In this document: positions 16,725 to 53,127 of the stretch, in pieces
Position numbering within the stretch: the first letter of the stretch is position 1
How the letters are laid out: the number at the start of each line of letters is the position of its first letter
Assembly (NCBI GenBank): GCA_021793515.1
Contig: JAJYSP010000017.1
Location: forward strand, 1-55,717
DNA: 55,717 nucleotides
Direction of reading: 5' to 3'
DNA from: Actinomycetes bacterium
GTDB taxonomy: Bacteria > Actinomycetota > Acidimicrobiia > Acidimicrobiales > RAAP-2
Position numbers and translations under genes: made by a program
Notes under the pieces: generated by a model
What the model was told of the DNA's origin: nothing
What the model saw: the letters and a program-made list of their open reading frames with translations, nothing else
Databases searched by the model: none

Positions 16725-18493
16725 TCGTCGACCAGGTCGACGGGTGCGTCGACGAACCGGCTGCGCAACCACTCGCCGAGACCCTTGGCCTGCTTGTCCA
16801 GACGACTCGACGCCGCGACACCCTCTTCGAGTAGGTCGTGGATGAAGAAGTTCAGCGCACGCAGATTCGCGAGCCGGTACCGGTCCACGACGAGCGTGCT
16901 CGTCTCGGGCAGCAGCTCGCCCAACCGCTCGGTGGTGAGGAACTCATCCAGCCAGGCCCAGACTCGCTCGTTGCGGGCAAAGACCCCGAGGTTGGCGTGG
17001 CCACCCTTGTCGCCCGAACGGGTCCCCACCAGACGTCCGAGCGCCACGCGCGTCGTGGGCACCGCATCGTCCCTGGCGGTCGCACCGGGTGAAGAGTCGG
17101 GTGGCGGTAGTGGCGTTGAGGACGTGTGGGGTGCCACCGAGTCGACGACGCGCGTCTCGCCACCGAGCATCGTGACGTACTGGGGCACTACCGAGGCTGG
17201 CACGAGGGCTGGCCGGTAGACCCCGAAGGGCGTGGCCGCGCCGGGGGCGTTCCCGACCCCGAAGTACCCCGGGATCGTCGCGAGAGCAATCTCCACGCCG
17301 GCGTTGGCGACGGCCCGACCGACCTTGCGCTCGTCGTGGTCGCGCAGTGTCAGGTGCCAAAGCGCGACGGCCTCGTCGTTGGTCACCGGGTCCACCTTGT
17401 CGGTGCGCGACAGTCGGGTGGTCACTCGCTCGAAGTCCTCGGGCGCGTAGGGACAGGCGTCCCAGAAGGCCGCCTCGACGACGCGGGCCTTCTCGTCGAT
17501 ATCGAGTCCCGTGAGCGCGATGTGGAGGTCCTGGCGGTAGCCGCCGAGTTCGTTGACCGCGACCTTCAGGGTCGCCGGCGGGGCCTCGCCGCGAACGCCA
17601 CTCAGGCGCACGCGGTCGCGTCCGATCTGGTCGAGCGTGATCGTGTCGAAGCGTGCAGTGACGTCCGGTCCGAGGTAGCGAGGTCCGGCGATCTCGTAGA
17701 GGAGCTGGGACGTCACGGTGCCGATCGAGACCTCGCCGCCCGTGCCGTCGTGCTTCGAGACAACGCACGATCCGTCCGAGGCGACCTCGACCCACGGGAA
17801 GCCCACGTGCGTGAGGTCATCGACCTCGCCGAAGAACGAGTAGTTGCCCCCTGTGACCTGCGCGCCGCACTCGATGACGTGCCCGGCCACGACCGCCCCG
17901 GCGAGGGCGTCGTAATCGTCGCGGGCCCACCGGTGGTGCCACGCGGCCGGCCCACAGACGAGCGCCGCGTCCGTGACCCGACCGGTCACCACGATGTCGG
18001 CCCCCATGTCGAGCGCCGCCACGATGCCAAAGGCGCCGAGGTAGGCGTTCGCGGTCAGTAGCGCCCTTGACTCGAGGGGTTCGCCCGTCTCGGCGTGGGT
18101 CAGTCCGTTGCCACTGGTGCTCAGCGCATCGAGGCGGTCGAGGAGGTCGTCTCCGTTCACGTAGGCGATGCGCGGCGAGAGGCCGAGCTTGTCGGCGGCC
18201 TCGGCGACGGCCTCGGCGCAGTGGTCCGGGTCGAGGCCACCGGCGTTGGCGACGACCTTGACCCCGCGCTCGAGGCAGGTGCCCATGACCTGCTCCATCT
18301 GGGCGACGAAGCTGCGCGCGTAGCCGCCACCGGGGTGCTTCAGGCGGGTGCGCGCGAGGATCAGCATCGTCAGTTCCGCCAGCCAGTCACCGGTCAGGAC
18401 GTCAATCGGGCCACCCTCGACCATCTCGCGCGCGGCCGACAGTCGGTCGCCGTAGAAACCCGAGCAGTTCGCGATGCGGATCGGGTCGGCCAC
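16721..18493 (-). CDS. atuA: acyclic terpene utilisation AtuA family protein (DUF1446)
   Basis: 590 residues beginning IRIANCSGFYGDR, with GPIDVLTGDWLAELTMLIL, VVANAGGLDPDHCAEAV, GADIVVTGRVTDAAL and VIECGAQVTGGNYSFF. These are the conserved segments of the AtuA/DUF1446 family. The C-terminal ~110 residues (RLVGTRSGDKGGHANLGVFA) are the AtuA-like C-terminal domain. AtuA is needed for growth on citronellol or geraniol in pseudomonads, but its reaction is not established. The gene lies 6 nt from the biotin carboxylase gene in the same operon. Confidence 0.88.
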   Translation of the reverse strand: MADPIRIANCSGFYGDRLSAAREMVEGGPIDVLTGDWLAELTMLILARTRLKHPGGGYARSFVAQMEQVMGTCLERGVKVVANAGGLDPDHCAEAVAEAADKLGLSPRIAYVNGDDLLDRLDALSTSGNGLTHAETGEPLESRALLTANAYLGAFGIVAALDMGADIVVTGRVTDAALVCGPAAWHHRWARDDYDALAGAVVAGHVIECGAQVTGGNYSFFGEVDDLTHVGFPWVEVASDGSCVVSKHDGTGGEVSIGTVTSQLLYEIAGPRYLGPDVTARFDTITLDQIGRDRVRLSGVRGEAPPATLKVAVNELGGYRQDLHIALTGLDIDEKARVVEAAFWDACPYAPEDFERVTTRLSRTDKVDPVTNDEAVALWHLTLRDHDERKVGRAVANAGVEIALATIPGYFGVGNAPGAATPFGVYRPALVPASVVPQYVTMLGGETRVVDSVAPHTSSTPLPPPDSSPGATARDDAVPTTRVALGRLVGTRSGDKGGHANLGVFARNERVWAWLDEFLTTERLGELLPETSTLVVDRYRLANLRALNFFIHDLLEEGVAASSRLDKQAKGLGEWLRSRFVDAPVDLVDE

Positions 18494-41156: not shown

Positions 41157-41229
41157 GGGGGTGTAGCTCAATTGGTAGAGCGCTACGTTCGCAATGTAGA
41201 GGCAGTGGGTTCGAATCCCATCACCTCCA
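41157..41229 (+). tRNA. tRNA-Ala(CGC), integration site of the element
   Basis: The acceptor stem GGGGGTG/CACCTCC (one G-T) is closed by a GCTC/GAGC D-stem. CTACG-TTCGCAA-TGTAG gives anticodon CGC, and GTGGG-TTCGAAT-CCCAT is the T-arm. The discriminator is A41229; CCA is not encoded (CCG follows). The 32-bp attachment repeat begins in its last four bases, so the element lies directly downstream and the tRNA body is intact. Confidence 0.95.
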
Positions 41230-42724
41230 CCGACCGGGACGGTGCGCGAACCGCATCGCCCGCCATGGCGTCGCCAGCCAAAGGCACGCGAAAGACGGGC
41301 TGAATGGCGTTGCGGCTGTCTACACGAATTTCGTGGATGAGGGCTTGTAGGAGTGATTTAACCACGGCTGGTGAGCCTTCGGCGATGGCCTCGTTCACTC
41401 GGTCGCGCAGTGTCGCGAGTTCCTCGGGCGACGCACACGTGATGTCGGCCTGTTCCATCTCCTCGTTCAGTTCTTCGCGGCGGGCTCGAAGAACGGTGGC
41501 GCGAGTGGCGAGTTCCTTCACTCGTTCACCGCACAGTGCCTCGGGCATGGAACCCGACTCGAAAGCTCGTAGGTAGCGATCGATACTGGCGTCGACCTTG
41601 GCGAGTTCATTGGTGACGGCTTGTAGTTCGTCGTCGTGGCGCGAATGACCGTCGCGGGCTTGTAGCTGTGCTTGGCCAACGGCAGCGCGAAAGAGGTCCG
41701 AGTCCTCGTAGGCGGCGAGCAGCGACTCGAGGATGGCACTATCGAGCACGTCGGCGGGCAGCCGGTCGGCGTCACAGGTCTTGGTGCCGTAGCGCTGGCG
41801 CGAACCGCAGGTGTAGTAGCGATAGGTCTCGTTGCGACCGGTTGCGCGGGTGCCACTGAAGTGCTGACCGCAGTGTGAGCAGACGACCAGTCCGGTGAGC
41901 AGGTAGTCCGACGCGTTGGTGGCGCGCTTGGCGCTGTCCTCTGCGCGCTCATCGAGGATCACCTGTGCGGCGTCGAAGAGCTCCTCGTCGACGAGAGCGG
42001 GGTGACTGCCGTCGCACCACCCGTCGCGGTAGCGGACCTGGCCGAGATAGACCCGACTGCGCAGCACGGTGAGAACCGACTTGAACGACCAGGGTTTGCC
42101 CGATCGGGTCACCAGGCCCGCCGCGTTGAGCCAATTGGCGACGGCGTGACTGCCGAGGTGCTGGTTCGCGTAGAGGTCGAAGAGCACCGGCACGAGGGGT
42201 GCTTCGGACTCATCCACGCTGAGACGGCCCTCACCCTTCACCGCGCGGTAGCCGTAGGGGGCGACGCCGCCGCACCAACCGCCGAGGCTGGCCTTGCGGT
42301 CCATGCCCGCGATCACGCGGTCGATGATGGTAGCTCGTTCAAATTCGGCGAAGACGCCGAGCATCTGGACCATCATGCGTCCCGCCGGAGACGTGGTGTC
42401 GAAGGGTTCGGTCGCCGAGCGAAAGCCCACGTTCACGCTGTCCAAGGTCTCTAGTATCTCGGCGAGCCCGCGCACGCTGCGCGAGAGCCGGTCGACGCGG
42501 TAGACGAGCAGGAGATCGAACTTTCCGGCCTTGGCGGCGCGCAGCGCGCTGGTGAGTCCGGGGCGCTCCAACTTGGCACCCGACATCTGGTCGGTGAAGG
42601 TGGCGACCAATTCCCAGTCCTCTTGGCTCGCGACGTAGTTGCTCAGTTTCTCGGACTGCGCGCCGAGGGAGTAGGGCTGGTTGACCTCGTCGGTCGAAAT
42701 CCGGGTGTAAGTGGCGATGCGCAC
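41183..42724 (-). CDS. int: large serine recombinase (integrase) whose 3' end crosses the attachment site
   Basis: 513 residues from GTG 42724, chosen because GAGGAG precedes it; upstream codons are not conserved. The resolvase domain includes the nucleophile S10 in ATYTRISTDE, with VYRVDRLSRSVRGLAEIL and GVFAEFERATIIDRVIAGM. The recombinase domain follows (PYGYRAVKGEGRL), then a zinc ribbon near residue 280 (CSHCGQHFSGT, later YYTCGSRQRYGTKTC) and a coiled-coil region. The gene runs through the 32-bp repeat (codons ~490-499) and ends inside the antisense of tRNA-Ala, where its last 14 residues (EVMGFEPTASTLRT) are tRNA-derived. In the circular form the tail would instead come from 52866-52959. 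Confidence 0.93.
   Translation of the reverse strand: MRIATYTRISTDEVNQPYSLGAQSEKLSNYVASQEDWELVATFTDQMSGAKLERPGLTSALRAAKAGKFDLLLVYRVDRLSRSVRGLAEILETLDSVNVGFRSATEPFDTTSPAGRMMVQMLGVFAEFERATIIDRVIAGMDRKASLGGWCGGVAPYGYRAVKGEGRLSVDESEAPLVPVLFDLYANQHLGSHAVANWLNAAGLVTRSGKPWSFKSVLTVLRSRVYLGQVRYRDGWCDGSHPALVDEELFDAAQVILDERAEDSAKRATNASDYLLTGLVVCSHCGQHFSGTRATGRNETYRYYTCGSRQRYGTKTCDADRLPADVLDSAILESLLAAYEDSDLFRAAVGQAQLQARDGHSRHDDELQAVTNELAKVDASIDRYLRAFESGSMPEALCGERVKELATRATVLRARREELNEEMEQADITCASPEELATLRDRVNEAIAEGSPAVVKSLLQALIHEIRVDSRNAIQPVFRVPLAGDAMAGDAVRAPSRSVEVMGFEPTASTLRT
41226..41257 (+). repeat. attL: 32-bp direct repeat copy 1
   Basis: A perfect 32-bp match to 52960-52991, starting TCCACCGACCGGGACGG and ending CGAACCGCATC. 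It begins in the tRNA-Ala 3' end and overlaps the integrase coding sequence, as expected for an attachment site. Confidence 0.93.
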
Positions 42725-42788
42725 GATGCTCTCCTCAATCGGTGGCGGTAGACATAACTTCAAACAAACTGAACGTCCACTTTGCTAG

Positions 42789-43079
42789 TCAACCATGCGT
42801 CGACGCTGTGACATCGGAAGGTTCGATCACGACACCGGTGGGGCGACCCCCAGACACCGTTCGGTCGAGCACGGACCCCAGCAGCGTTGCGAGCGCGATC
42901 GTCGCGCGAATCTCGTCGGCGTTCGAGAGATCGACGAAGACGGGTGCGTTGATGCACAGCGAAACCGAGGCGCTGTCCTTCGGCGTCGTTGGTCGAGGGG
43001 GTTGCACGGGTCGGCCAGGTCCGGGGCCACGAGAACCGGGGTAGTCGACCTTCGGACGGGGGTTCTTGCGTGGCGTCAC
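42789..43079 (-). CDS. small conserved-position protein between rep and int (possible recombination directionality factor)
   Basis: 96 residues from GTG 43079, overlapping the rep stop by 4 nt. A Pro/Arg-rich N-terminal 35 residues is followed by a compact part (DLSNADEIRATIALATLLGS). It has no recognised domain. Its place between replication initiator and integrase, and its coupling to rep, would suit an excisionase or directionality factor, but this is inferred only from position. Confidence 0.6.
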   Translation of the reverse strand: MTPRKNPRPKVDYPGSRGPGPGRPVQPPRPTTPKDSASVSLCINAPVFVDLSNADEIRATIALATLLGSVLDRTVSGGRPTGVVIEPSDVTASTHG

Positions 43080-44554
43080 GGTTCACGCCGTTCGAAGTCG
43101 AGGAAGTGACGAGGCCGCTCGTCCCAGAGGTCGGCGTCATGTCGTCGTTCGATGCAGCGAGCCTCACGGGCCTCCGTTCGCGACTGCACCTTCTCTCGCT
43201 GGCCCTGCAACGCGAGCCAGGCATCACCAAGACTGCTCCAACCGGCCCCGATCCACTTCCACACGCCAATATTGATTGACTGTTCGTTGGGTGCGGTGCC
43301 GTGTTGACGCTGTACCTGCCAAGCTTGGCGCTCCGCCCGCAAGAACTTGAAGGTCACTGAGTAGCGACGCGACTTGGTGAGCCAGTGGCCGCCAAAGCCG
43401 AGCGAGTGTGCCCACGTGCGCAGGCGCGCGAGATGGGTCAGTGCACCGAGCCGCCACGCCATCGTGACCAGACGGGCCAAGTGTACCGACACGTTACGTG
43501 CGTCGAGGTCGTCGAGACTCGTGAGACGCCGGTCGAGGGCGCCCAGATCGTCGGTGGATTTTGTCGCGTACTTGGCGACGTAATTCGCAACGGCGCGCGA
43601 ACTGCGTCGTGACTCACTACTGTCGGCGTCGTCACCGTCGACCTCGCTGGCGTTGATCACGCGCACGTCGAGTTGTCGACCCCACCGCGCACTTGCGAGT
43701 GGTGCGTCCGAGAATCCTGCGGGCAGCGGTGCCGACACCTTCGAGGCGGCGGCGCGAATAGCCGAGGTGAGAGTCTGTGCGTCGATGAAGTGCGGTACAT
43801 CACCTTCGCCGTCACGGGGATCGACGCGCAGTATCGCGTGCAGGTGCACGACGCCCCGGCGTTGGAACTCGGCGACCTTGGCGAACGAGAGTCGCACCGA
43901 CTGGTCCAGTTCTTTTACGTTCATCTCGCAGAGTCGCGCGAGTTCGCGTCGCACGTAGATGGTGGTGCGCCGCCACAGTTCGGGACAGGTCGCGTTCCAC
44001 AAGACTGATTGCTCGTAGTCGTAGCAGTCGGGGCAGATCGGGTGTCCGAGTGCGGGATCATCGGCGCGGTGGCGAAGGTGGCAGGTGGCGCGGCGACCGT
44101 GCGCGCAGGGTTGCTGGTTCGTGCCCGCACGACAGGGTCTCGTGCCCCTCGCGCCGTGGACCGCGCCGAAGCTTGGGGCAGTGAACGTGGCGAAGACCAT
44201 CGGGTGTTGCGACACTGATTCCGGCACGCCCTTGCCACCCGACATCCCTGCTCGCACGAGCATCCTCGCGTCACTCGCGTAGAGGGCGGCGCAACTGGGA
44301 CAGCGCGTCGCGCGTCGGGTACCGCACGCCTTCAAGAGCACGCCATCTGGTTCGTCGTTCGTGGAGTACGAACGCAGAATCTCGCCGGTCGAGGTGTCTA
44401 CGCTCACCGAGTTGCCAATGAGACGGATGGGGTGCGCGCACCAGCCGCACTGTTCGCCCTGGCGTTGCAGGTTGGCCAAGGACGCCGGGTCACTGGCGCG
44501 AGCCAGCACCCCGTGCCAGGTCTTCTCGTCGGGTGCGCGGGTGACCATAGACAC
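43076..44554 (-). CDS. RepSA-like HUH rolling-circle replication initiator
   Basis: 492 residues from GTG 44554 (ATG 44548 possible). The N-terminus has zinc-type cysteine pairs (CGWCAHP; RCPSCAALY), and GHPICPDCYDYE follows. The HUH metal motif is in FQRRGVVHLHAILRVD near residue 235. Later KYATKSTDDLG-type and HLARLVTMAWRLG segments match actinobacterial RepSA-type initiators. It nicks the element origin to start rolling-circle copying. It lies 5 nt after the ftsK-like stop and overlaps the next gene by 4 nt. Confidence 0.85.
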   Translation of the reverse strand: MSMVTRAPDEKTWHGVLARASDPASLANLQRQGEQCGWCAHPIRLIGNSVSVDTSTGEILRSYSTNDEPDGVLLKACGTRRATRCPSCAALYASDARMLVRAGMSGGKGVPESVSQHPMVFATFTAPSFGAVHGARGTRPCRAGTNQQPCAHGRRATCHLRHRADDPALGHPICPDCYDYEQSVLWNATCPELWRRTTIYVRRELARLCEMNVKELDQSVRLSFAKVAEFQRRGVVHLHAILRVDPRDGEGDVPHFIDAQTLTSAIRAAASKVSAPLPAGFSDAPLASARWGRQLDVRVINASEVDGDDADSSESRRSSRAVANYVAKYATKSTDDLGALDRRLTSLDDLDARNVSVHLARLVTMAWRLGALTHLARLRTWAHSLGFGGHWLTKSRRYSVTFKFLRAERQAWQVQRQHGTAPNEQSINIGVWKWIGAGWSSLGDAWLALQGQREKVQSRTEAREARCIERRHDADLWDERPRHFLDFERREP

Positions 44555-44559
44555 GGTTC

Positions 44560-45867
44560 CTACTTCCCGAGTCGAAGTTGGCGGGCACGCTCGGCCAGTG
44601 CGCGCACGTCATCGTCGTTCAGGTGAAAGGCACGCAGTTGCACCGGTACGCCACCTTCGTGAAGGAGCAGACCGACCCCGCGCCGCGCCGAGTTGAGGTT
44701 CGACGCGGAGAAGCCCTCGCTGGCCCAACCGGCCCCGAGCACGGTGTCACTCGCGTCGCGCGTCGCACAGCGCAGCGCCCAGCGAAACCCGAAGAGATCG
44801 CGCAGTGTCGACGGCACAATGTCCGTCGAGGGCTTCTGCGTGGCCGCCAGCACGATGATCCCGGCGGCTCGCCCACGTGCGACGAGGTCGCGCAGCAGTT
44901 CGGCGAAACGCTGGGCGGACTTCTTGTCGGTCCCCGCGACGTAGAGCGCGAGCTCGTCGATGACGACGACGCGCAGGCGAAGCCCCTCGGCGCGGGTCAC
45001 CTTGCGCACGCCGCGACGCAGGAGCTCGTCATAACGGTCGTCCATCTCAACGGTCAGCTCTTCGAGGACCGTGATGGCGAGTTGCACGTCGTGGCCGACG
45101 AAGACTCTCGCGCACGCTGACCACGCGCTGAGTTCGACTACTTTGCCGTCGAAGAGACAGAGGTCGACTTCGGGGTCGAGCGCGGCGGCAGCCACCAGCA
45201 GCGATAGGGCGACCGACTTGCCCGCGCCGGGTTCGCCGCCCAGCAGCACGTTGCGCTCGGGTAGCGACAGCGTCACGATCTCACCCTCTTCGTTAACGCC
45301 CACCGGGACTGCGTCCCAGAGACAGGTCCGCTGCATGTGGAGCAGTGGACAGCGCAGCGCTTCAACACCGAACGGGTCGTCACGGGTGATGGTCAGTGAC
45401 ACGAGGTTCCGCTTGGCCGAGTTCGCCACGCAGCGAACCTGGCGCACCCCGAGCGACGCCGCGAGGACGGCTTCGGCCTTCACGAGGTCATCAATGGACG
45501 TACCACGCCAGAGCACAAGCTCGACACGGTCCCCGAAGGTCGTGCGCGTGATCTTGACGATGTGAGGCCGCTTCTCGCTCAGCACTCCGGGCAGCGCGTG
45601 GAACGCGGCTTCGAGGTGTCGACGCACGCTTGATCGGTGCAACAGTCGCCCGAGGAATCGGCGAAGTGGACCGACGCAGAGGACGGTCGTAACGAGTGCG
45701 ACCGGAGCGGCGATGGCGAAGAACAGACCGAAGCGCACGTAGAGCCAGACGCCGAGTCCGGTGGGTAGAGCGAACAGCCCGAGCTCAACGCGCCAGACGG
45801 CGAGCAGGCGCAGCAGTTCATCGAGCATTTCGTCGGTCATTGAACGTGAGTTGGTGGGAGCGTTCAT
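44560..45867 (-). CDS. FtsK/SpoIIIE-type DNA translocase (TraB/TraSA-like conjugation protein)
   Basis: 435 residues behind AAGGAAC. Two hydrophobic segments (about 25-65) anchor it in the membrane. Walker A GGEPGAGKSVALSLLVAAA is near residue 210; Walker B VVVIDELALYVAG near 300; LAATQKPSTDIVPSTLRDLF follows, as in FtsK domains. In AICEs one such hexameric pump moves double-stranded DNA between mycelial or paired cells. It is preceded by a stem-loop and followed by rep. Confidence 0.9.
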   Translation of the reverse strand: MNAPTNSRSMTDEMLDELLRLLAVWRVELGLFALPTGLGVWLYVRFGLFFAIAAPVALVTTVLCVGPLRRFLGRLLHRSSVRRHLEAAFHALPGVLSEKRPHIVKITRTTFGDRVELVLWRGTSIDDLVKAEAVLAASLGVRQVRCVANSAKRNLVSLTITRDDPFGVEALRCPLLHMQRTCLWDAVPVGVNEEGEIVTLSLPERNVLLGGEPGAGKSVALSLLVAAAALDPEVDLCLFDGKVVELSAWSACARVFVGHDVQLAITVLEELTVEMDDRYDELLRRGVRKVTRAEGLRLRVVVIDELALYVAGTDKKSAQRFAELLRDLVARGRAAGIIVLAATQKPSTDIVPSTLRDLFGFRWALRCATRDASDTVLGAGWASEGFSASNLNSARRGVGLLLHEGGVPVQLRAFHLNDDDVRALAERARQLRLGK

Positions 45868-45895
45868 TGGAAGTTCCTTTCGAGAAGGGGAAGGT

Positions 45896-45921
45896 GCCCC
45901 GAGAGAGAGTTCTCTCGGGGC
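45896..45921 (-). terminator. strong hairpin between the OB-like gene and ftsK-like gene
   Basis: On the minus strand GCCCCGAGAGA-ACTC-TCTCTCGGGGC forms an 11-bp perfect stem, extended by GGTG/CACC with a small bulge. It begins 9 nt past the OB-like stop. A TTCCCCTTCTC tract follows, so it could be a leaky terminator or processing site that sets different levels of the two genes. Confidence 0.55.
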
Positions 45922-45929
45922 GCACCTCC

Positions 45930-46262
45930 TTAGGCCGCGACCGGGGCCTTGGTCGCGGGACCGGACAGGACTTCCACTCGCTCGGCGCGGAAACTCACGC
46001 CATGACGGTCGCCCATCTGCCAGGTCGTCGCCACGAGACCAGTGACCTTCACCTGGGCTCCGAGCGTGAGGCCCTTGGGCTCGCCGGCCACCTTCACGAC
46101 GAGGATGTCGGCTCCTTCACCGCCGATCGCCACGACACTGACGGCGAAAATCGCCTTGCCGTCGGCGTCGACACGCTGTTGTTTCGAGTCGAAGTCGATC
46201 ACCGGCTCGGCAATCGAAACCGCGAGAAAGTCGAGGCTACTTGTTTCAATGGGTAGTTTCAT
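45930..46262 (-). CDS. conserved AICE protein with probable OB-like fold
   Basis: 110 residues from ATG 46262, set by GAAGGA; a longer reading adds nine non-conserved residues. It begins MKLPIETSSLDFLAVSIAEP and contains VSVVAIGGEGADILVVKVAG and LGAQVKVTGLVATTW. I recognise this layout from proteins encoded just upstream of tra/rep in Streptomyces integrative elements, where it is usually left as hypothetical. An OB-like single-stranded-DNA role would suit rolling-circle transfer but is inference. Confidence 0.75.
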   Translation of the reverse strand: MKLPIETSSLDFLAVSIAEPVIDFDSKQQRVDADGKAIFAVSVVAIGGEGADILVVKVAGEPKGLTLGAQVKVTGLVATTWQMGDRHGVSFRAERVEVLSGPATKAPVAA

Positions 46263-46454
46263 GTTCGTTCCTTCGTGCGTTGTCGGCACAATCTGTGGCG
46301 ACGAAACGAAGGTAAAGAATCTCAGGTGGTGAAAAGGCGAAAACAGTCAAAGTCACAGCAGGATTGTGAGTGATTGTTAGTTGCCGTCGAGGGTCGCCAG
46401 CAGGCGCGTGGAGTTACGTCAACCGTCTGGCGCGCGGAGAACTCGTCGAACTAC

Positions 46455-47687
46455 TCAGCCGTAGAGGCGTTGCTTGAGTTTGCGCAGGGCCAGACTTCGC
46501 CGTCGGCCCAACTGGTCTTCGATTTCTTCGATGATCATCATCACGAGTCCCAAGTTCCTGAGTTCCTCGGGTGCGATCTCTTCGATGTGCAGCAGCGTGT
46601 CGATCGCGCGCTCGGGCGACTTGATCAGAAGATTGGCTCGCGCGACGTCGATCAAGAAGCGGGCCTGGCGTTCAGGTGACAGCGTTCGCGGCGGAACGGC
46701 TTTGGCGCGGTCCAGGGCCTCTTGCCCGTTGCCCAGTTCGACCGAGATGGCGACGGCGTGCATGGCCACGTTGGTTGGACCGAACTCGGTACCGTACTCG
46801 TTTCGGTCTTCACCCAACTGACGGGCCAGTGTCTGGGCCGTCTTGAGAGACTTCTGCGCTGAGGCGGTGTCGTGGTCGCGCGCGAGCAACACCCCGGTCA
46901 GCAGCGCGCACCCTCCCACCAGTGAAATCAGTCCCGGATCGTGCGAGGACTTCACGTCATTCGCCATGACCATGGCCCGCTTCAAGACGTGCACCGCCAG
47001 TTTCTGGTCCTTGGCGTCGAGCATGGTGCGCGCCATCCGTAACTGACCCGCCAGAATCAGGCAGCGATCTCCGCAACGTTCCCCGGCGGTGATGGCCCGA
47101 TCGGCGGCGACCCAGGCGGCACCGTGGTCGTCGACCTTGACGAGCATGGCGGCCGCGACCTGGTAGACGTCGGCGAGACAGGTAAGGGTCCGAGTCGAGT
47201 CGACGTCACTCGTCGATCGACTGGCGGCCTCGGCCACGGGAATGAGCGCCGCGAGTACGTGGCCGAGTTCTTGGTAGGAAGAAGCGTGCACCAACGCCCA
47301 GGCGTGATGCGTCTGGGCTTCTAACTCTTCGAGGGTGACGGTGGTCGACACCGCCGCCGCGTTGGGTACGAGTGACTCGGGGTTCGGGAATCCGGCGATC
47401 GCTACGCGCACCATCTCCACGTAGTCACGCTCCCGCAGGTTCTTCGCGGCGTCGGGAACCCCCGTCGCGCGCACGAACTCGATCAGCGGGGCGCCCAACG
47501 CCAGGGCGAGACGCCCGAGGTGGTTGATGTCCCTGACCTCGATCTCGCCCTGCTCCACCTGAGCGACCCAGCTCGTGGACATACCGATCTCGTCGTGGAG
47601 TCGCTCTTGAGTCCAGTTCCTCTCACGCCGGTACTGCCTGACGAGCGTGCCTACGACGTTGACTTCGTCAGCGGCGTCACTTCGCAC
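46455..47687 (-). CDS. XRE-type regulator with C-terminal TPR-like domain
   Basis: 410 residues from GTG 47687 (GGAGAA upstream). Residues ~12-65 are a helix-turn-helix (LVRQYRRERNWTQERLHDEIGMSTSWVAQVEQG, split at standard positions). The rest is helical and resembles the tetratricopeptide repeats of Streptomyces XRE regulators that sense signals. Its start overlaps the ABM-domain gene stop by 11 nt, so the two are coupled. It is the likely regulator of the downstream transfer/replication module. Confidence 0.85.
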   Translation of the reverse strand: MRSDAADEVNVVGTLVRQYRRERNWTQERLHDEIGMSTSWVAQVEQGEIEVRDINHLGRLALALGAPLIEFVRATGVPDAAKNLRERDYVEMVRVAIAGFPNPESLVPNAAAVSTTVTLEELEAQTHHAWALVHASSYQELGHVLAALIPVAEAASRSTSDVDSTRTLTCLADVYQVAAAMLVKVDDHGAAWVAADRAITAGERCGDRCLILAGQLRMARTMLDAKDQKLAVHVLKRAMVMANDVKSSHDPGLISLVGGCALLTGVLLARDHDTASAQKSLKTAQTLARQLGEDRNEYGTEFGPTNVAMHAVAISVELGNGQEALDRAKAVPPRTLSPERQARFLIDVARANLLIKSPERAIDTLLHIEEIAPEELRNLGLVMMIIEEIEDQLGRRRSLALRKLKQRLYG

Positions 47688-47997
47688 GCAGTTCTCCGTT
47701 GATCACGCCCGACAGTGTCGCCAGCGGCCAGACTTCGGGTGGACCGACCAGGTGTTGGCCGCGCTCTTGGAGAAATCGAATCGTGTGGACCTGGGCTTCG
47801 TGGAACGCGAAGGCGTCGTCGCTCTGGTAACACTCGTAGAACACGCGCTCGTCGGGCCGATCAGAGCGCTCGTGACTCACGTAGACGAGGGTGGCGGGCT
47901 CGTGGCGGGCAATCTGCGCCAGCGTGTCAGAAACCAGCACGTCGAAGGCTTCGAGGTGGTCGGGGAGCACGGTAAAGCGGACAACCAGAGCAAACAC
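47677..47997 (-). CDS. antibiotic biosynthesis monooxygenase (ABM)-domain protein
   Basis: 106 residues from GTG 47997, set by GAGAGG; a longer reading begins TTG/ATG upstream. FALVVRFTVLPDHLEAFDVL, EPATLVYVSHERSDRPDERV and CYQSDDAFAFHEAQVHTIRFL are characteristic of the ABM/dimeric alpha+beta barrel group. Family members act on quinones, haem or small aromatic molecules. Coupling to an XRE regulator suggests ligand sensing or modification, but this is inference. Confidence 0.82.
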   Translation of the reverse strand: MFALVVRFTVLPDHLEAFDVLVSDTLAQIARHEPATLVYVSHERSDRPDERVFYECYQSDDAFAFHEAQVHTIRFLQERGQHLVGPPEVWPLATLSGVINGELRAK

Positions 47998-48253
47998 GGC
48001 GCGGCCTCTCATTAGCAAATTGCTGTTCTGGAAACCGTACCCGCCCCATCTGGCCCGGCACCGGCAATCCCGAATTCACGCAATTCCGTCCGAGTCAGGT
48101 GCATGAACTGCGATCGACCAATGTTCACGCTCACCAGTGCCAGAGACCTGAACCATCGAAGTTCATCGATACCAGTCGGAATGGGAACTCGTGTGGACGC
48201 ACCTGCAATCGACCGATGAATCCCAAATAATCAACTTTCGGGGTTGATGACGA

Positions 48254-48300
48254 GGCGGTGGCCCTGCCGGGAACCTTCGGCCCCCGTCAGAGCCACCGCC
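48254..48300. other. long imperfect hairpin in the 304-bp gap 47998-48301
   Basis: GGCGGTGGC and GCCACCGCC form 9-bp perfect arms with further CTG/CAG pairing and an inner CCG-rich loop. It is the only structure seen in the gap 47998-48301. It lies immediately downstream of the interrupted helix-turn-helix gene (minus strand) and so may be its terminator, though no T-run follows. Confidence 0.45.
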
Positions 48301-48318
48301 ATTACGCCAAGGCCAAGT

Positions 48319-48343
48319 GTGTGAGAACTTTCTTTACGTATTC
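48319..48343. repeat. 25-bp repeat, copy 1
   Basis: GTGTGAGAACTTTCTTTAC plus TATTC with one mismatch between matches 53077-53101, same orientation. Copy 1 is the 3' end of the helix-turn-helix gene; copy 2 lies right of attR. Confidence 0.7.
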
Positions 48344-48479
48344 GAGAGTCAGCCGTCCCGCACGAGGAACCCACTGGTCGTCACGACCCTCTCGTTTCTG
48401 ACCGGCCAGGACTGTTCGGACCTGCGACGGACCGGACACACTGACGTGTCGAGCAATGCTTCGAAGAGACTCGCCCTTG

Positions 48480-48487
48480 CGTCGAAG
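48480..48487. repeat. 8-bp target duplication left of the IS256-family element
   Basis: CGTCGAAG here equals 50676-50683 on the other side of the element. Confidence 0.85.
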
Positions 48488-48606
48488 AGTTGAGTCCCAA
48501 CGAGTGGTGTACGAGCCAGTGAGCTGAATCAGGGTCCACCAAAAACGACGTTCATCGCGTCAATCTCAAGATGCAGTTCTGACACAACAACTTGAGGAGA
48601 GACACG

Positions 48607-50601
48607 ATGAACGTCCCAACCACTATCGACGCTGGCGCCTGGCTTAGCAAGTACCTGGAGGGTGCCGATGGCGACACCGACCTGGCGAGGTCCATGCTCG
48701 GGGCCTTCGCCGATGCCGTCATGAGTGCCCAGGCGTCGATGCAGTGCAACGCCGCCTACAACGAGCGCACCGCAGAGCGTGAGAACTCGCGCAACGGCTA
48801 TCGCACCCGGCCCTGGGACACGCGGGTCGGCACGATTGAGCTCAACGTCCCCAAACTGCGCCGAGGGGTCTACAGCCCCGAGGTGCTGCTGAACCCGCGC
48901 CGACGGGCCGAGCAGGCACTTGTGGCGGTGATCTGCCAGGCCTACGTCGAAGGAGTCTCCACGCGGCGCGTTGACGACCTCGTCAAGGCCATGGGCATCG
49001 ACGGGATGAGTAAGTCCGAGGTTTCGCGCCTGGCCGGCGAGCTCGACGCCGTCGTGGCTCAGTTCAAGGAACGACCCCTCGACCGTGGTCCCTACCGCTA
49101 TCTGTGGATCGACGCGCTGACCCAGCGGGTGCGAGAGGGTGGCCGGGTCGTCAACGTCGCCGCGGTGATTGCGACCGCCGTCAACAACGAAGGGACTCGT
49201 GAGATCATCGGCTTCGATATCACCACCACCGAGTACACCGCGGCCTGGACGGCCTTCCTGCGCTCGCTCGTGGCTCGCGGGCTCAGCGGGGTCGAACTCG
49301 TCATCTCCGACGCGCACGGCGGGATCAAAGCCGCCATCGCCCAGGTGCTCTCCGGGGCCAGCTGGCAACGCTGTCGAACCCACTTCATGGCGAACTTGGC
49401 GACCCGGTGCACCAAGGCCAGCTGGCCGATGATCGCCACGGCGGATTCAAGCAAAGGGAGTGAGCCTTCGCGACATCGCGAAGGAGATCGGCTGCAGCCA
49501 TTCGGGCATCGATGTGGTGCTTCGCGGGCAAGCTCGTGCGGCGAAACCAGACGTCTGGATGCCGCGTCCAGGAAGCCTGCAAGTGGGCGAACGTGAAGTG
49601 ATCATGCTGGCTCTCCACGATGGCCTCTCGATGACCGCAATCGCCCTGCAGCTCGGCCGCTCGCTCTCCACCGTGACCAGAGAAGTGAAGGCCAACGGCG
49701 GGCGTGAGAACTATCGGGTGTGGCCCGCCCACCAGCGCGCACGAGAGAACTCCAAGCGTCCAAAGCCCAGCAAACTAGCCAACCCAGCGCTGTGTGACCA
49801 GGTCACCGAGTGGCTTGAGAAGTTCTGGTCGCCCGAGGAAATCTCGGCGTGTCTGCGCCTACAGTTTGCTGATGATCCCACCATGCACGTGAGCCACGAG
49901 ACGATCTACCAGTCACTGTTCGTGCAAGGACGCGGCGAGTTGCGTCGCGAGTTGGCCCGGTGTCTTCGCTCGGGGCGGACGAAACGCAGAGTTCGTGGGC
50001 CGGTCGAGACTCGCGGGAAAATACCGAACATAGTCATGATCTCTGAACGACCAGCGGAGGTCGAAGATCGAGCCGTGCCGGGCCACTGGGAGGGTGATCT
50101 CATTATTGGCAAAGATGGCGCGAGCGCGGTGGGAACGCTGGTTGAACGCCAGACTCGGCTGCTGCTCGGCGCTCCATCTTCGATCAGCCCGACCGCGACA
50201 GCACCTGGGCCAAGTTGGCCGAGGTCACCAGTCGACTCACCCAGGCCGGGTTCTGTGACGAGGCGACCTACTTGCTCGACGCGGCCGACGACATCTTGGC
50301 CTTCACCGCCTTCCCGTTCGAACACTGGAAGAAGATCAGATCCAACAATCCCCAGGAACGGCTCAACAAGGAGGTCCGCCGGCGCACCGACGTGGTGGGG
50401 ATCTTCCCCAACCGTCAGGCGGTCATCCGTCTCGTGGGCGCCCTGCTCGCCGAGCAGAACGACGAGTGGGCCGTCTCGAGGCGCTACGTGCGAATTGAAT
50501 CACTCAGCCAGCCCGCGATCACCGAACCGTCGTTCGAGGATCCGAGGCCGGCGATCATTGCCGCACGCGAGGAGGTTGTCATCGATCTCACCGCGGCCTA
50601 G
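48607..50601 (+). pseudogene. IS256-family (mutator) transposase, split by an IS30-family fragment
   Basis: Starts at ATG 48607 (GAGGAGAG upstream). The N-terminal part to about 49443 has NSRNGYRTRPWDTRVGTIEL, VPKLRRGVYSPEVLL, YLWIDALTQRVREGGRVVNV (first catalytic Asp) and ISDAHGGIKAAI (second Asp). After the insert the reading resumes near 50167 (RSIFDQPDRDSTWAKL) and goes on with FEHWKKIRSNNPQERLNKEV (Glu) to the stop at 50601. The parts together give about 424 residues, the full family length. The joined product cannot be made as it stands. Confidence 0.9.
49444..50168 (+). pseudogene. IS30-family transposase fragment inside the IS256 transposase
   Basis: About 240 residues in one frame: KGVSLRDIAKEIGCSHSGID (HTH), GLSMTAIALQLGRSLSTVTREV, SPEEISACLRLQF, HETIYQSLFVQGRG, and HWEGDLIIGKDGASAVGTLVERQT, the start of the DDE domain. 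Both ends are missing, no terminal repeats or target duplication are visible, and the two junctions lie within the IS256 gene. A deletion/insertion by illegitimate recombination, or an assembly join, would explain this. The frame continues open to 50791 only by chance. Confidence 0.85.
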
Positions 50602-50675
50602 AGTTCACGACGACGAGGTTGGCGTGGCGAACGACGAGGCGCACGAACTCTTACACCACTCGTTGGGACTTAACC

Positions 50676-50728
50676 CGTCGAAGCCGACGAGCCAATTGCC
50701 GTTGCTGCTTCGTGAGGTGAACACCCAC
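50676..50728 (-). pseudogene. 5' part of the interrupted helix-turn-helix gene
   Basis: GTG 50728 follows AGGGAGG and reads MGVHLTKQQRQLARRL before the IS. It joins to 48302-48487 through the shared 8-bp duplication. The 90 bp from 50729 to 50818 upstream contains no other gene. Confidence 0.75.
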
Positions 50729-50818
50729 TACGCCTCCCTGTTAGTCGATCCGTCAAGGATGACTCACCAGGGCGTTGCACTCACCCCTTGAAACCGCCGA
50801 TCAGCAGAATGGGCAACT

Positions 50819-51457
50819 TCAAACATCCGTATTGGAATATAAAACGGCCGCACTCGCAGACTCGCAGACACCCGTGGTCCCAAATACGTAGCCTGGAGAA
50901 CCGTCAGATTGGATTACCTCGGAATGGTAGTGTCCCGTGCCCTGAATGTCGTCAAAACTACCCAACCAAGACTGTTGAGCGTAGTCCTCATCCCAATCGA
51001 CCTGAGCAGACCTATTGTAAGTGACGTTCGTCGTGTCGACTCCCCATTGGAAGTAGTAAACGGTCCCGACATCCTGATAGTTGACGTCCCAACCGGTCAC
51101 TCCGGTGATACCCGAGTTGTTTGAGTTTGCGTAAATATAAATGTCAGAGGTGCCGCAATCTCCAGTAATCGTGGTGTCAGGTTGAACGCCGTTCGATGGA
51201 GTGGAAATTTTTACTCGCGATGCAACCGTCGTTGGGACGGTGACTTCTTGTCCGTTTGACAATGTCAATTCACTCATGCCGTTTGCGAGTTGAACGCTAT
51301 TTGAAACGCCCACGAGAGTCATCGGGACGGAAGTAGAGGTTGAACTCGCCGCTTGCGCCGGCACCGCGCCCGAACTGAGGGGCACGAGCACAACAAAAAG
51401 ACCCGCTCCCAATGAACAGAGATAACGAAGAACCAGATTAAGTTTCATGCTTTTCAT
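50819..51457 (-). CDS. secreted protein of unknown function (element cargo)
   Basis: 212 residues starting MKSMKLNLVLRYLCSLGAG. A basic start, hydrophobic stretch (LFVVLVPLSSGAVPAQA) and small-residue site suggest Sec export with cleavage after AQA. The mature protein is Ser/Thr/Val-rich with VTVPTTVASRV, SDIYIYANSNNSGITGV and many Tyr, a beta-rich secreted look. Base composition is AT-richer than the chromosome and codon use differs from the backbone. A TTGACA/TAACAT promoter lies about 90 bp upstream. No family is recognised. Confidence 0.7.
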   Translation of the reverse strand: MKSMKLNLVLRYLCSLGAGLFVVLVPLSSGAVPAQAASSTSTSVPMTLVGVSNSVQLANGMSELTLSNGQEVTVPTTVASRVKISTPSNGVQPDTTITGDCGTSDIYIYANSNNSGITGVTGWDVNYQDVGTVYYFQWGVDTTNVTYNRSAQVDWDEDYAQQSWLGSFDDIQGTGHYHSEVIQSDGSPGYVFGTTGVCESASAAVLYSNTDV

Positions 51458-51543
51458 GAGCCGTTTCCCTCTTTCGCTAGCGGTTGAGCGATGGGCGACG
51501 ACTAGTTCGAAAGTGTGAACAGTTGGCCGCCGTCACCGCACCC

Positions 51544-51573
51544 ATGTTAATTATAAGGATGTGTAACTGTCAA
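51544..51573 (-). promoter_or_regulatory. promoter candidate for the secreted cargo protein
   Basis: On the minus strand TTGACA (51568-51573) and TAACAT (51544-51549) are separated by 18 bp. A TATAAT also lies between them at 12-bp spacing. It points toward the gene starting at 51457. Confidence 0.5.
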
Positions 51574-51673
51574 TGGCACGGCCGCCTGAGACCTCATAGA
51601 CCGACGCAACTCATCGCTTGACGTTTGAGCCAACGATGGTTGTGGGTACGAAATATCCTTCTCGCTCTACTTT

Positions 51674-52321
51674 TTACGTCTCACCGATTACCCTTAAACC
51701 CGATTCGAAGGTCCTTTTGAGTTCCGCGGCGAAGTGTGCATCGTCAAAGAAGGTCTCCTCTGAGCACAGAAGCACCCCAGGATCCGAAACGCAAGACCAT
51801 TCGCCTTTCACCGCCAAGACGAGTACAGCGGCCCTAACCCGTTCTGGAGGCACGTGATGCTCTTGCATGACCAACTCCGCGACGTTCTTTGATAGCGCCC
51901 AATCGCGTCGTAAGGTCTTGGCCGCGTGTATGTTTGTCCATTCGATTCCCTGCTTCCAAGTTCGTTGTGCAGCGCTCCTCAGAGTCGGAAAGTCCGCGAG
52001 ACTTTCGAACTCATCGAACTGGTCAAATATCGGTCTGCGAGCCATTATGCGTGCCATTTGATCACCGTCCTGAGAACCGAGATGATTCGCGCCCGTCGCA
52101 TGAATTAGTCGGCGCCACCAAAAAAGCCAAGCCAGCGATAGATCGTTTCGGTCAGAGGAGCTCATTTCCAGATCCGGGTTGCGGACGACGTCATCAAGCG
52201 AGGGAGGCACCTCGGCACTGACAGGCTCTAACCCAAAGACGTCTCGAACGTAGAGCCACACATGCAGTGCCTGATCGTTCGAAGTGCTAAGAATCCAAGT
52301 TTTCGAACTAACAGACTTCAC
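51674..52321 (-). CDS. hypothetical protein (element cargo)
   Basis: 215 residues from GTG 52321. A TAAAAT -10 element ends 6 nt upstream, so the transcript is probably leaderless. There is no signal peptide or transmembrane segment. It is Trp/Arg-rich in places (SLAWLFWWRRLIHATGANHL) and ends in a compact region (VRAAVLVLAVKGEWSCVSDP). I recognise no domain. It is AT-richer than the backbone and lies beside the IS3 relic. Confidence 0.65.
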   Translation of the reverse strand: MKSVSSKTWILSTSNDQALHVWLYVRDVFGLEPVSAEVPPSLDDVVRNPDLEMSSSDRNDLSLAWLFWWRRLIHATGANHLGSQDGDQMARIMARRPIFDQFDEFESLADFPTLRSAAQRTWKQGIEWTNIHAAKTLRRDWALSKNVAELVMQEHHVPPERVRAAVLVLAVKGEWSCVSDPGVLLCSEETFFDDAHFAAELKRTFESGLRVIGET

Positions 52322-52327
52322 TTTGCC

Positions 52328-52333
52328 ATTTTA
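52328..52333 (-). promoter_or_regulatory. -10 element TAAAAT of leaderless cargo gene
   Basis: TAAAAT on the minus strand ends 6 nt before the GTG at 52321. Confidence 0.5.
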
Positions 52334-52455
52334 TCCGAAAGGTCTTTCATGAGGTTCCCCAGCGAAAGTGGACACGGTTTTCATGCTGCGATGCGTGCGG
52401 CTGAGGCCAACGTTATCTCGTAGTTGACGGGGCTGATGGTTCCGACCTTCGAGTA

Positions 52456-52463
52456 GCGACGGG
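52456..52463. repeat. 8-bp target duplication left of the MITE
   Basis: GCGACGGG here equals 52579-52586. Confidence 0.85.
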
Positions 52464-52578
52464 TTGCCGTGTGGTAGAGGGGAGGTCAACTCTGGACGGT
52501 GATGATCGAATGGCCTTAGAATTTCTGACGATTTAGGGTGTCGGAGGCCGGGTTTACCTCCCCTGCATCACACGGCAA
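52464..52578. mobile_element. 115-bp MITE with 23-bp terminal inverted repeats
   Basis: Ends 52464-52486 and 52556-52578 are inverted repeats matching at 20 of 23 positions (outer TTGCCGTGTG, inner AGGGGAGGT). GCGACGGG is duplicated on each side. It has no coding capacity. Deleting the element with one duplication copy restores an IS3 transposase reading without a frameshift, so insertion is certain. The parent autonomous element is not in the window; 8-bp duplication fits several DDE families. Confidence 0.9.
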
Positions 52579-52802
52579 GCGACGGGTGTGATTGTAACAG
52601 TCGATGTAACCGGCGAGGCCGGTGCGCAACTCATCCATGGTGGCGAACACGTGGCGATAGAAGTACTCGTGTTTGAAGATCGACCAGAAACTTTCTGCGC
52701 TGGCGTGGTCGAAACCTTAGCCGGTTGCCCCCATCGAGCGCACGATGCCGAGTTGCTCGCAGAGTGCCGCGATACCACCATCACTGAACTGGGTGCAGCG
52801 AT

Positions 52803-52832
52803 CGGTGTTAAGCCGAATTCGGTTTAGCACCG
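52803..52832. promoter_or_regulatory. 30-bp near-perfect palindrome near the right end of the element
   Basis: CGGTGTTAAGCCGAA and TTCGGTTTAGCACCG are 15-nt arms matching at 13 positions; the two differences become G-U pairs in RNA. It lies at the broken 5' end of the IS3 relic, 128 bp from attR. Candidate roles are a DNA-binding site for element control or excision, or an old insertion-sequence end. Confidence 0.5.
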
Positions 52833-52865
52833 AACATGTCGAGGTTCTTCTGGCGTAACCGTGAG

Positions 52866-52959
52866 CTAATTCAAGAAATCGCCCAACATCCTCGCGTCGA
52901 GGTCGCTCGACTCTCGCACGAATGTCACAATGACGTGGTTCTTATTGTGTCCCTCAAGG
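52866..52959 (-). other. predicted alternative integrase C-terminus (used only in the circular form)
   Basis: Reading on the minus strand leftward from attR in the integrase frame gives 31 sense codons beginning DLEGHNKNHVIVTFV and ending LGDFLN, then TAG at 52866-52868. Codon composition is coding-like. On excision this segment joins the integrase after the repeat, making a 530-residue protein instead of 513. It is the only content I see in 52841-52959. Confidence 0.6.
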
Positions 52960-52991
52960 TCCACCGACCGGGACGGTGCGCGAACCGCATC
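52960..52991 (+). repeat. attR: 32-bp direct repeat copy 2
   Basis: A perfect copy of 41226-41257. The sequence to its right is the chromosome that lay directly downstream of tRNA-Ala before insertion. Confidence 0.93.
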
Positions 52992-53019
52992 TTTGACTGA
53001 ATGGTTTCAGGAGAAAAGT

Positions 53020-53050
53020 ACTCGCCGGGCGTCTTCACCGCCCGGCGAGT
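53020..53050. terminator. 12-bp perfect hairpin, probable original tRNA-Ala terminator
   Basis: ACTCGCCGGGCG-TCTTCAC-CGCCCGGCGAGT is a perfect 12-bp stem with a 7-nt loop, 28 bp past attR. Before insertion it sat about 60 bp after the tRNA-Ala gene. The minus-strand side is followed by ACTTTTCTCC, so termination may be better in that direction. Confidence 0.65.
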
Positions 53051-53076
53051 GTCTCTACACACGAGCAGAACCTCAC

Positions 53077-53101
53077 GTGTGAGAACTTTCTTTACTTATT
53101 C
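53077..53101. repeat. 25-bp repeat, copy 2
   Basis: Matches 48319-48343 at 24 of 25 positions. On the minus strand it reads like the end of the helix-turn-helix gene (VKKVLT) but with a stop in front, so it may be a relic of a second copy. Confidence 0.65.
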
Positions 53102-53127
53102 AAGTGGGGTGAATGGGTGTCGGGAAT

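Follow-up and report, generated by a model that had tools for sequence, protein, structure and literature searches.

In the 55,717-nt stretch of actinomycete DNA analyzed here (the window, one whole contig of a 2.38-Mb draft genome), an element of about 11.7 kb lies between a tRNA-Ala(CGC) gene at 41157-41231 and position 52991, with an exact 32-bp repeat at both borders, and the frame of its large serine integrase gene (41183-42724, minus strand) runs out through the repeat into antisense tRNA-Ala. The explanation we favor, with a probability of roughly two in three, is that the C-terminal tails that result would be by-products of a coding attachment site, and that the same site may have served a serine integrase for building cassette arrays at the 3′ ends of tRNA genes. 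The tail itself is most likely tolerated as such a by-product, judging from the comparisons below, rather than being the switch between integration and excision that an initial annotation of the locus had suggested.

The two copies of the repeat (41226-41257 and 52960-52991) are identical, with no extension either way. The integrase frame is in phase with the repeat, which codes for DAVRAPSRSV. Read from its GTG start at 42724, the integrated form passes into antisense tRNA-Ala, ends with EVMGFEPTASTLRT and stops at 41183-41185, inside the tRNA gene, giving a protein of 513 AA. When the repeat copies are joined in silico, as they would be in a circular unit, the frame continues for 31 residues into 52866-52959 (minus strand; tail DLEGHNKNHVIVTFVRESSDLDARMLGDFLN) to a stop ending at 52866, and the protein has 530 AA. 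The 32-bp repeat traversed by the frame, the antisense tRNA tail of the 513-AA form and the coding tail of the 530-AA form had all been described in the initial annotation and were borne out. At 31 residues the circular tail is not unusually long and lies within chance: 25 of 106 cassette starts from the arrays described below, joined to the integrase frame, gave a tail at least as long, as did 58% of random frames in the element.

Used as a query, the distal end of the element revealed many copies of its arm in related genomes. The stretch at 52992-53105 (minus strand), supposed to be chromosomal flank, contains an inverted repeat detected by eye and has 77–83% identical copies in four other loci, together with a 75% identical copy in a fifth (G132), located inside an integrase-bearing unit. 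A like end of 105–113 bp with the P′ arm, i.e., the left arm of attP, adjoins antisense tRNA-Val in three loci (G000:C15, G147:C63 and G079:C10); in another (G102:C5) it adjoins a T-arm-like stretch in which no tRNA is recognized. Because matching ends stand at tRNA-Val elsewhere, the right-hand side of the window is most likely a neighboring mobile unit, with the distal repeat copy (52960-52991, minus strand) as its P′ end. A standard attL/attR duplication was rejected on this ground as an explanation of the 32-bp repeat; the repeat noted in the initial annotation stands, and the ordinary duplication does not. The proximal copy (41226-41257, minus strand) would be both the last integrase codons and the left arm of attP, as its conservation at the DNA level suggests, and the integrase-bearing unit would begin at 52937-52964 (minus strand) with the core and right (P) arm, GTGGACCTTGAGGGACACAATAAGAACC, in which GAACC lies 19 nt from the core. 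The exchange core is probably about 4 bp, GTGG, and at the tRNA-side junction (attL) the breakpoint profile places it at 41227-41230 (minus strand). The target tRNA gene (plus strand; identified by ARAGORN) has in its T-arm the attB-side box, GGTTC at 41208-41212, 14 nt from the core. The window thus most likely shows a tandem that reads unit 2, GTGG, integrase-bearing unit, GTGG, tRNA-Ala; no chromosomal end of the array was seen within the contig.

Sites of this kind are widespread among relatives. For the search we used the pattern GTGGACCTTGNGNNACACAATAAGAACC with at most 3 mismatches, and the reversed pattern as a control. GTGG followed by an arm like ACCTTGAGTCACACAATAAGAACC gave 145 matches in 51 of the 99 genomes of the genus and none for the control. 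Family-wide, such first-class sites occur in 68 of 172 genomes and 8 of 21 genera, again with no match to the control, and across the order they are rarer, with 18 positives in a sample of 397 genomes that includes the own family. Twenty sites of a second arm class, GCGC.CC.GGCCTCCCA.AATGCGAACCTC, were found in 14 of the 172 family genomes (control 0). The first-class arm, tried for the 43–61% identical integrase relatives, was absent upstream in most of them, and the second class was found there instead. An origin of the repeat and its neighbors in assembly or binning is extremely improbable: the assemblies are drafts and some sites stand at contig ends, but the sites recur in those 68 separately assembled genomes and the control stays at zero.

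For some of the 145 genus sites we retrieved the surrounding DNA, 80 stretches in all and all of them from the genus; together with the window they hold 111 distinct sites, with 4 mismatches allowed (one site has 4) and identical surroundings excluded. The 111 sites lie in 72 stretches, and none of the 28 stretches with at least two sites has them on both strands. What is conserved at each site is a one-sided 28-bp arm. A tRNA gene is found downstream in 29 of the 72 stretches, antisense in all 29, and none is shown in the other 43; the GTGG of the last unit abuts the antisense tRNA 3′ end, of tRNA-Val in 15 cases, tRNA-Ala in 13 and tRNA-Leu in one. Units delimited on both sides number 68 (39 arm to arm, 29 arm to tRNA), with a median of 976 bp and 61 of at most 2 kb. 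Their open reading frames (ORFs) have Pfam matches to PIN (14), Phd/YefM (13), ParE (7), HTH_3 (7), HepT (6), nucleotidyltransferase (5), Fic (3) and MazE (3), and toxin-antitoxin families were found with NCBIfam too. These counts refer to 111 of the 126 ORFs of at least 60 AA in 63 units of at most 2.5 kb, called mechanically rather than as curated genes; the 15 omitted by hand are no longer than 86 AA, and 13 of these lie on the opposite strand.

As shown by pairwise comparison of 140 junctions, cassette ends and starts are combined modularly: 154 pairs have only the cassette end in common, 166 only the start, and 3 have both. In the 34 gap-free pairs with a common end, followed by an arm in one member and by a tRNA in the other, identity is 0.94–1.0 over the last ten bases and through GTGG, and drops to 0.44 at the base right after it; this loss is a free observation, independent of how the sites were found. 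In the 39 gap-free pairs with a common start, identity climbs from about 0.28 to about 0.95 at GTGG. Site-specific recombination at a short core leaves just such a profile, and the cassettes appear to be shuffled at GTGG. The small units could also be deletion remnants of successive insertions of elements like the one in the window, accreted and no longer mobile. Truncated integrase ends do occur in three array stretches (L204, L198 and L263), and accretion has been proposed for ssrA islands without integration modules (PMC3146451). Many units, however, carry a compact ORF or two belonging to toxin-antitoxin types that are seen repeatedly, a given end or start is found beside different neighbors, and identity breaks at GTGG, which makes remnants a decidedly unlikely explanation.

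The distance between the core and a short box differs in a regular way between the two sides of these junctions. Counted from GTGG, GAACC follows at 19 nt in 101 of 111 arms, and its T-loop copy at 14 nt in all 29 tRNA ends. The second class, found with relatives of about 57% identity and having a core and arm of its own, shows 16 nt in 3 of 3 arm-like and 11 nt in 6 of 6 tRNA-like junctions, 5 of its 14 junctions being unscored. The same 5-bp offset between attP and attB motifs is thus present in two site classes (19 vs. 14 and 16 vs. 11). For the LI/A118 integrase, the zinc-domain motif is described as shifted by 5 bp toward the core in attB relative to attP (PMC3783163), and GAACC is probably the corresponding motif here. 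In the integrase’s own left arm GGTTC stands 17 nt before GTGG in 12 of 12 distinct junctions (at least 70% identity), which makes attP symmetric about GG. A GGTTC box within 30 nt of the core was found at the left end of only 36 of 137 cassette junctions, against a background of 6%. Since most cassette ends have no left box, we suggest a one-armed model, in which a free left arm would let the junction [cassette end]-GTGG-[tRNA arm] be used as a target again.

The anatomy, the modular breakpoints, the orientation and the 5-bp box offset in two site classes are read directly from the letters, and from them we infer that the integrase probably moves the cassettes, in cis or in trans; the exact core, the order of events and the neutrality of the tail are likewise put forward as probable. 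The integrase gene has no stop of its own before the attachment site, and about its last ten codons would be the left arm of attP. The stop would be supplied by whatever DNA is joined at GTGG: antisense tRNA when the unit is integrated beside a tRNA gene, or the right arm of attP with the DNA after it when the unit is circular or another cassette follows. The same right arm, GTGG-ACCTTGAGTCACACAATAAGAACC, begins the cassettes, mostly of 0.5–2 kb, arranged in tandem next to the 3′ ends of tRNA genes across the family. Recognition by the integrase may depend on two boxes: in the cassette arm (P), GAACC at a distance of 19 nt from the core, and in tRNA genes (B), the near-universal T-loop GGTTC at 14 nt; the other arm would hardly matter. 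The junction created by insertion, [cassette end]-GTGG-[tRNA arm], would itself be a fresh target, and with the entry site regenerated in this way cassettes would pile up beside the tRNA gene as they do in an integron.

To see how far the swap of the C-terminus extends, we compared integrase 3′ ends. Matches to the integrase occur in 29 of the 172 family genomes (own included); the genome collection gave 67 loci, and 3 viral contigs came in addition (L067 was omitted from alignment A2). Distinct integrase 3′ ends number 59 including the window’s, 55 with a stop in the contig and 4 without. In 40 of the 55, window included, the frame ends within an antisense tRNA or transfer-messenger RNA (tmRNA) gene or past it: tRNA-Arg in 17, Ala in 6, Val in 6, Glu in 4, Leu in 2, Lys in 2, Pro and Ile in one each, and tmRNA in one. 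The motif [GD][FLIV][EDG][PL], mostly GLEP or GFEP and corresponding to the T-arm read in one frame, is found in 38 of these 40 ends. Of the other 15 ends, seven have the same motif with no recognized tRNA and eight are without it; two of the eight (L121 and L057) read into their own attachment-arm class. Absence of a private stop codon is general in this integrase clade. A C-terminus set by the DNA joined at the attachment site, as the initial annotation had it, is therefore upheld and general.

The function assigned to the swap was not upheld. The tail could be a real switch, with the 530-AA circular form favoring integration and the tRNA-tailed 513-AA form favoring excision or being degraded. 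For such a role speak the recurrence of the swap across the clade, the T-arm-frame motif common to 38 of 40 tRNA-stopped ends, and two precedents discussed below (the BPs repressor, PMC4557955, and a suggestion made for DsiB, PMC3146451). However, the integrated tails of integrases that are 96% identical over the aligned part, EVMGFEPTASTLRT, GAEGLEPPTC and GATGLEPVTSAV, differ according to the tRNA hit. For the circular form, the nearest upstream sites give DLESHNKNRISSVSEPKINLGAPHSI (G153), DLESHNTNHKFTVDRLTL (G132) and DLGGHNKNPTIAG... (G002) vs. DLEGHNKNHVIVTFVRESSDLDARMLGDFLN in the window, and three further upstream sites in G153 and G002 match the window no better; this comparison covers three complete relatives of 75–96% identity and six candidate sites, with L048 unscored as its contig ends. 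The circular tails share only about eight arm-coded residues of the type DL[EG][SG]HN[KT]N and diverge after them, and a conserved circular tail was rejected accordingly. This is the outcome that the initial annotation itself had named as one that would refute its reading. Apart from residues coded by the attachment arm or the T-arm, the relatives examined share neither tail, the integrated tail is predicted to be disordered, tail length is within chance, and no ending like the ssrA tag was visible in either window tail on our own inspection. We regard the switch as improbable.

The last integrase codons before the core, in turn, are kept as DNA: the 26-nt P′ arm is 96–100% identical in four relatives of 73–75% identity, in which codons are identical at only 0.51–0.55 of conserved residues in the gene body (L043, the fifth of this group, was unscored because the motif was unmatched). 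With tails unconserved and the last codons kept as DNA, the tail is best read as translation of the attachment site plus whatever follows. Among the other integrase loci, many of which have little upstream sequence, an exact repeat of at least 15 bp was found only in L121/L055 (30 bp, corresponding to a second integrase 3′ end upstream) and in L074 (19 bp, inside the coding part). We also observed, at L121:62-153, a second integrase 3′ end and attachment arm upstream in the same orientation, a tandem like the window’s. In L054, L121 and L057 (57–59% identity) an attachment arm of their own class directly follows the integrase, with no tRNA, so the tail reads PPALHNANLSTEL... in L054/L121 and PPGLHNANLSTEL... 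in L057 and the integrase lies inside an array. L210 (G153:C103) has attachment arms at 17048 and 19136, on the far side of the integrase gene, and the antisense tRNA beside that gene, apparently cut short, was unrecognized by ARAGORN.

Pfam domains in the integrase (526 AA) follow the order of large serine recombinases: Resolvase (PF00239, 17-162), Recombinase (PF07508, 186-273) and zinc-ribbon (PF13408, 288-348). The best NCBIfam matches are CcrB (190.1 bits, cut-off 900) and CcrC (148.5, cut-off 900), followed by CcrA (107.3, cut-off 700), all under their cut-offs. The AlphaFold model of the integrated form has a mean predicted local distance difference test score (pLDDT) of 79 and a predicted template modeling score of 0.48, and its nearest fold matches in the PDB are the SPbeta and Bxb1 integrases. 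In this model the last strand is at 473-478 and residues 485-513 have pLDDT below 50. The tails are thus predicted to begin beyond the folded domain; it was the integrated form that was modeled, and the circular tail begins at the same place.

A different recombinase could have built the arrays, with the integrase of the element merely sharing or hijacking the site. Consistent with this, 43 of the 51 genomes with arrays in the genus, which are drafts, yielded no close integrase, and other serine recombinases exist, among them a family of 37% identity. The same core and arm, however, lie upstream of the integrase gene in five integrase-bearing loci, close relatives of the integrase sit at tRNA-Val, -Ala and -Leu ends just as the arrays do, and the 5-bp shift fits a serine integrase. 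Integron arrays, moreover, commonly occur without an integrase. The 37% family was rejected as the array builder, as no tRNA was found in the loci of two members, L032 and L033. We consider another builder unlikely. A second serine recombinase, 37% identical to the integrase of the window, is present in the same genome (G000:C30:137942-139426).

Several points weigh against arrays built by this integrase and are gathered here. All evidence comes from the sequence of draft assemblies. Forty-four of the 72 stretches have a single site. Close integrases and sites co-occur in the genus without significance (sites in 8 of 10 integrase genomes, a list put together by hand, vs. 43 of 89 others; Fisher p 0.093), and co-occurrence was rejected as proof. 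The first-class arm was absent in ten integrase relatives of at least 73% identity, within upstream sequence of at most 5.8 kb. As sites were found by their arm, GTGG itself and the step at cassette starts are partly built in, and the breakpoint pairs, coming from related genomes, are not independent. The 19-nt count follows from the search pattern and the 14-nt count from tRNA geometry, so only their difference is free. Twenty of the 36 left boxes stand at 15 nt vs. 17 nt in the integrase’s own arm, a 2-bp discrepancy that the model leaves unexplained. Finally, characterized serine integrases without a helper accept only attP x attB (PMC3783163), whereas array growth as proposed needs attL-like targets.

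Four further genes of the element are on the minus strand. Next to the integrase is a RepSA-type replication initiator at 43076-44554 (PF20199, E 1.9e-148; NCBIfam RepSA 397.5 bits, below the cut-off of 700), followed by an FtsK/TraB-like transfer ATPase at 44560-45867 (PF01580, E 6.9e-17), an SCO3933-like small regulatory protein at 45930-46289 (NF051478, E 7.4e-22, 77.5 bits, cut-off 80) and a helix-turn-helix regulator at 46455-47687 (PF13560, E 1e-8). An FtsK-like transfer gene is a feature of actinomycete integrative and conjugative elements (AICEs). With a serine integrase, PF20199 and PF01580 proteins and a tRNA-Ala end, the element is AICE-like. Frames of IS256- and IS30-type transposases overlap at 48592-50791, inside the element, which suggests that one inserted into or truncated the other. 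The ORFs at 50819-51457 (212 AA) and 51674-52321 (215 AA) had no Pfam or NCBIfam match at E 0.001, and near the distal end an IS3-type transposase fragment was recognized by eye at 52554-52840 (minus strand). A motif of 28–34 bp, about GAACTTTCTTTACTTATTCAAGTGG, occurs at 53076-53109 and 48319-48346 of the window and at twelve further places in other genomes of the genus, some of them within array stretches.

The closest precedent for the swap is in Dehalococcoides, where, according to McMurdie et al. (2011), the CcrB-like gene dsiB always overlaps attL and has its stop outside the island, and DsiB may be fully functional only on the circle (PMC3146451). As in the window, the integrase there runs over attL and takes its stop from antisense ssrA or from an adjacent island, and, like the arrays here, islands stand in tandem and some lack an integration module. 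Those islands use one tmRNA gene, 20-bp ssrA repeats, a helper, DsiA, and rdhA cargo (PMC3146451), whereas here we find several tRNA species, a short core, toxin-antitoxin-rich units of about 1 kb, the box rule and AICE-type Rep and FtsK proteins. The element of the window sits at tRNA-Ala, and one of the 40 integrase ends at tmRNA. A second resolvase, the counterpart of DsiA, was not seen among the ten element proteins in the Pfam scan, a scan not dedicated to it. Mycobacteriophage BPs likewise has attP inside a reading frame and a C-terminus changed by integration, which bears out the remark in the initial annotation that such phage repressors are known; there the repressor tail carries a degradation tag (PMC4557955), whereas no conserved tail or tag was seen here. 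Given DsiB and BPs, the swap is not new in kind; the tRNA-encoded integrase tail that the initial annotation had singled out for attention is real, with a precedent in DsiB from 2011 (PMC3146451). What is in our judgement new, as a variation on familiar systems, is the arrays at tRNA genes that a serine integrase would have built, and these, reached via the site, more than a tail switch, are the reason to keep the locus in view.

Serine-integrase AICEs in tRNA-Leu of Mycobacterium resemble the window in integrase, RepSA and the tRNA 3′ end, with no cassette arrays described in the portion of that report available (PMC3218068). The attachment sites of LI/A118 resemble those here in the 5-bp shift of the motif toward the core on the attB side (PMC3783163); they differ in that here the T-loop of the tRNA provides the attB box and conservation of the second arm is mostly lacking. 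CcrB and CcrC, the closest curated models of the window’s integrase, belong to staphylococcal cassette chromosome (SCC) elements, which are reported to stand in tandem, as the units here do; the scores are far below the curated cut-offs, and the target is a tRNA or tmRNA gene (40 of 55 integrase ends) rather than orfX (rlmH). SCC elements insert at orfX and are far larger than the units here.

Integrons (IntI, attI, attC) are comparable in operation, with tandem, same-orientation, toxin-antitoxin-rich cassettes of about 1 kb, shuffled at fixed sites and often without a nearby integrase. The arrays here have same-orientation tandem cassettes with modular breakpoints at a common site as well. 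They differ in that the integrase-bearing unit encodes a serine and not a tyrosine recombinase (IntI was not searched in the array genomes), tRNA ends are the entry, and a double-strand arm rule is likely in place of folded attC. No description of serine-integrase cassette arrays was found in the literature searched, with subscription papers and preprints outside its scope. If the reading is true, integron-like gene capture evolved twice, the second time around an unrelated enzyme; the half-site logic of a 5-bp offset, one free arm and a regenerated entry would explain both serine-integrase arrays at tRNA genes and why integrases of the clade end in translated antisense tRNA (GLEP/GFEP tails), and a one-armed serine integrase accepting several tRNAs would be of interest to genome engineers. 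The arrays look like a serine-recombinase analogue of the integron. The fuller comparison, of a double-strand counterpart with a CcrB-like one-armed integrase, the near-universal tRNA T-loop as entry site, a 28-bp arm as tag, a regenerated entry and single-gene cassettes, often toxin-antitoxin, at several tRNAs, also where the integrase is absent, we hold to be slightly better than an even bet.

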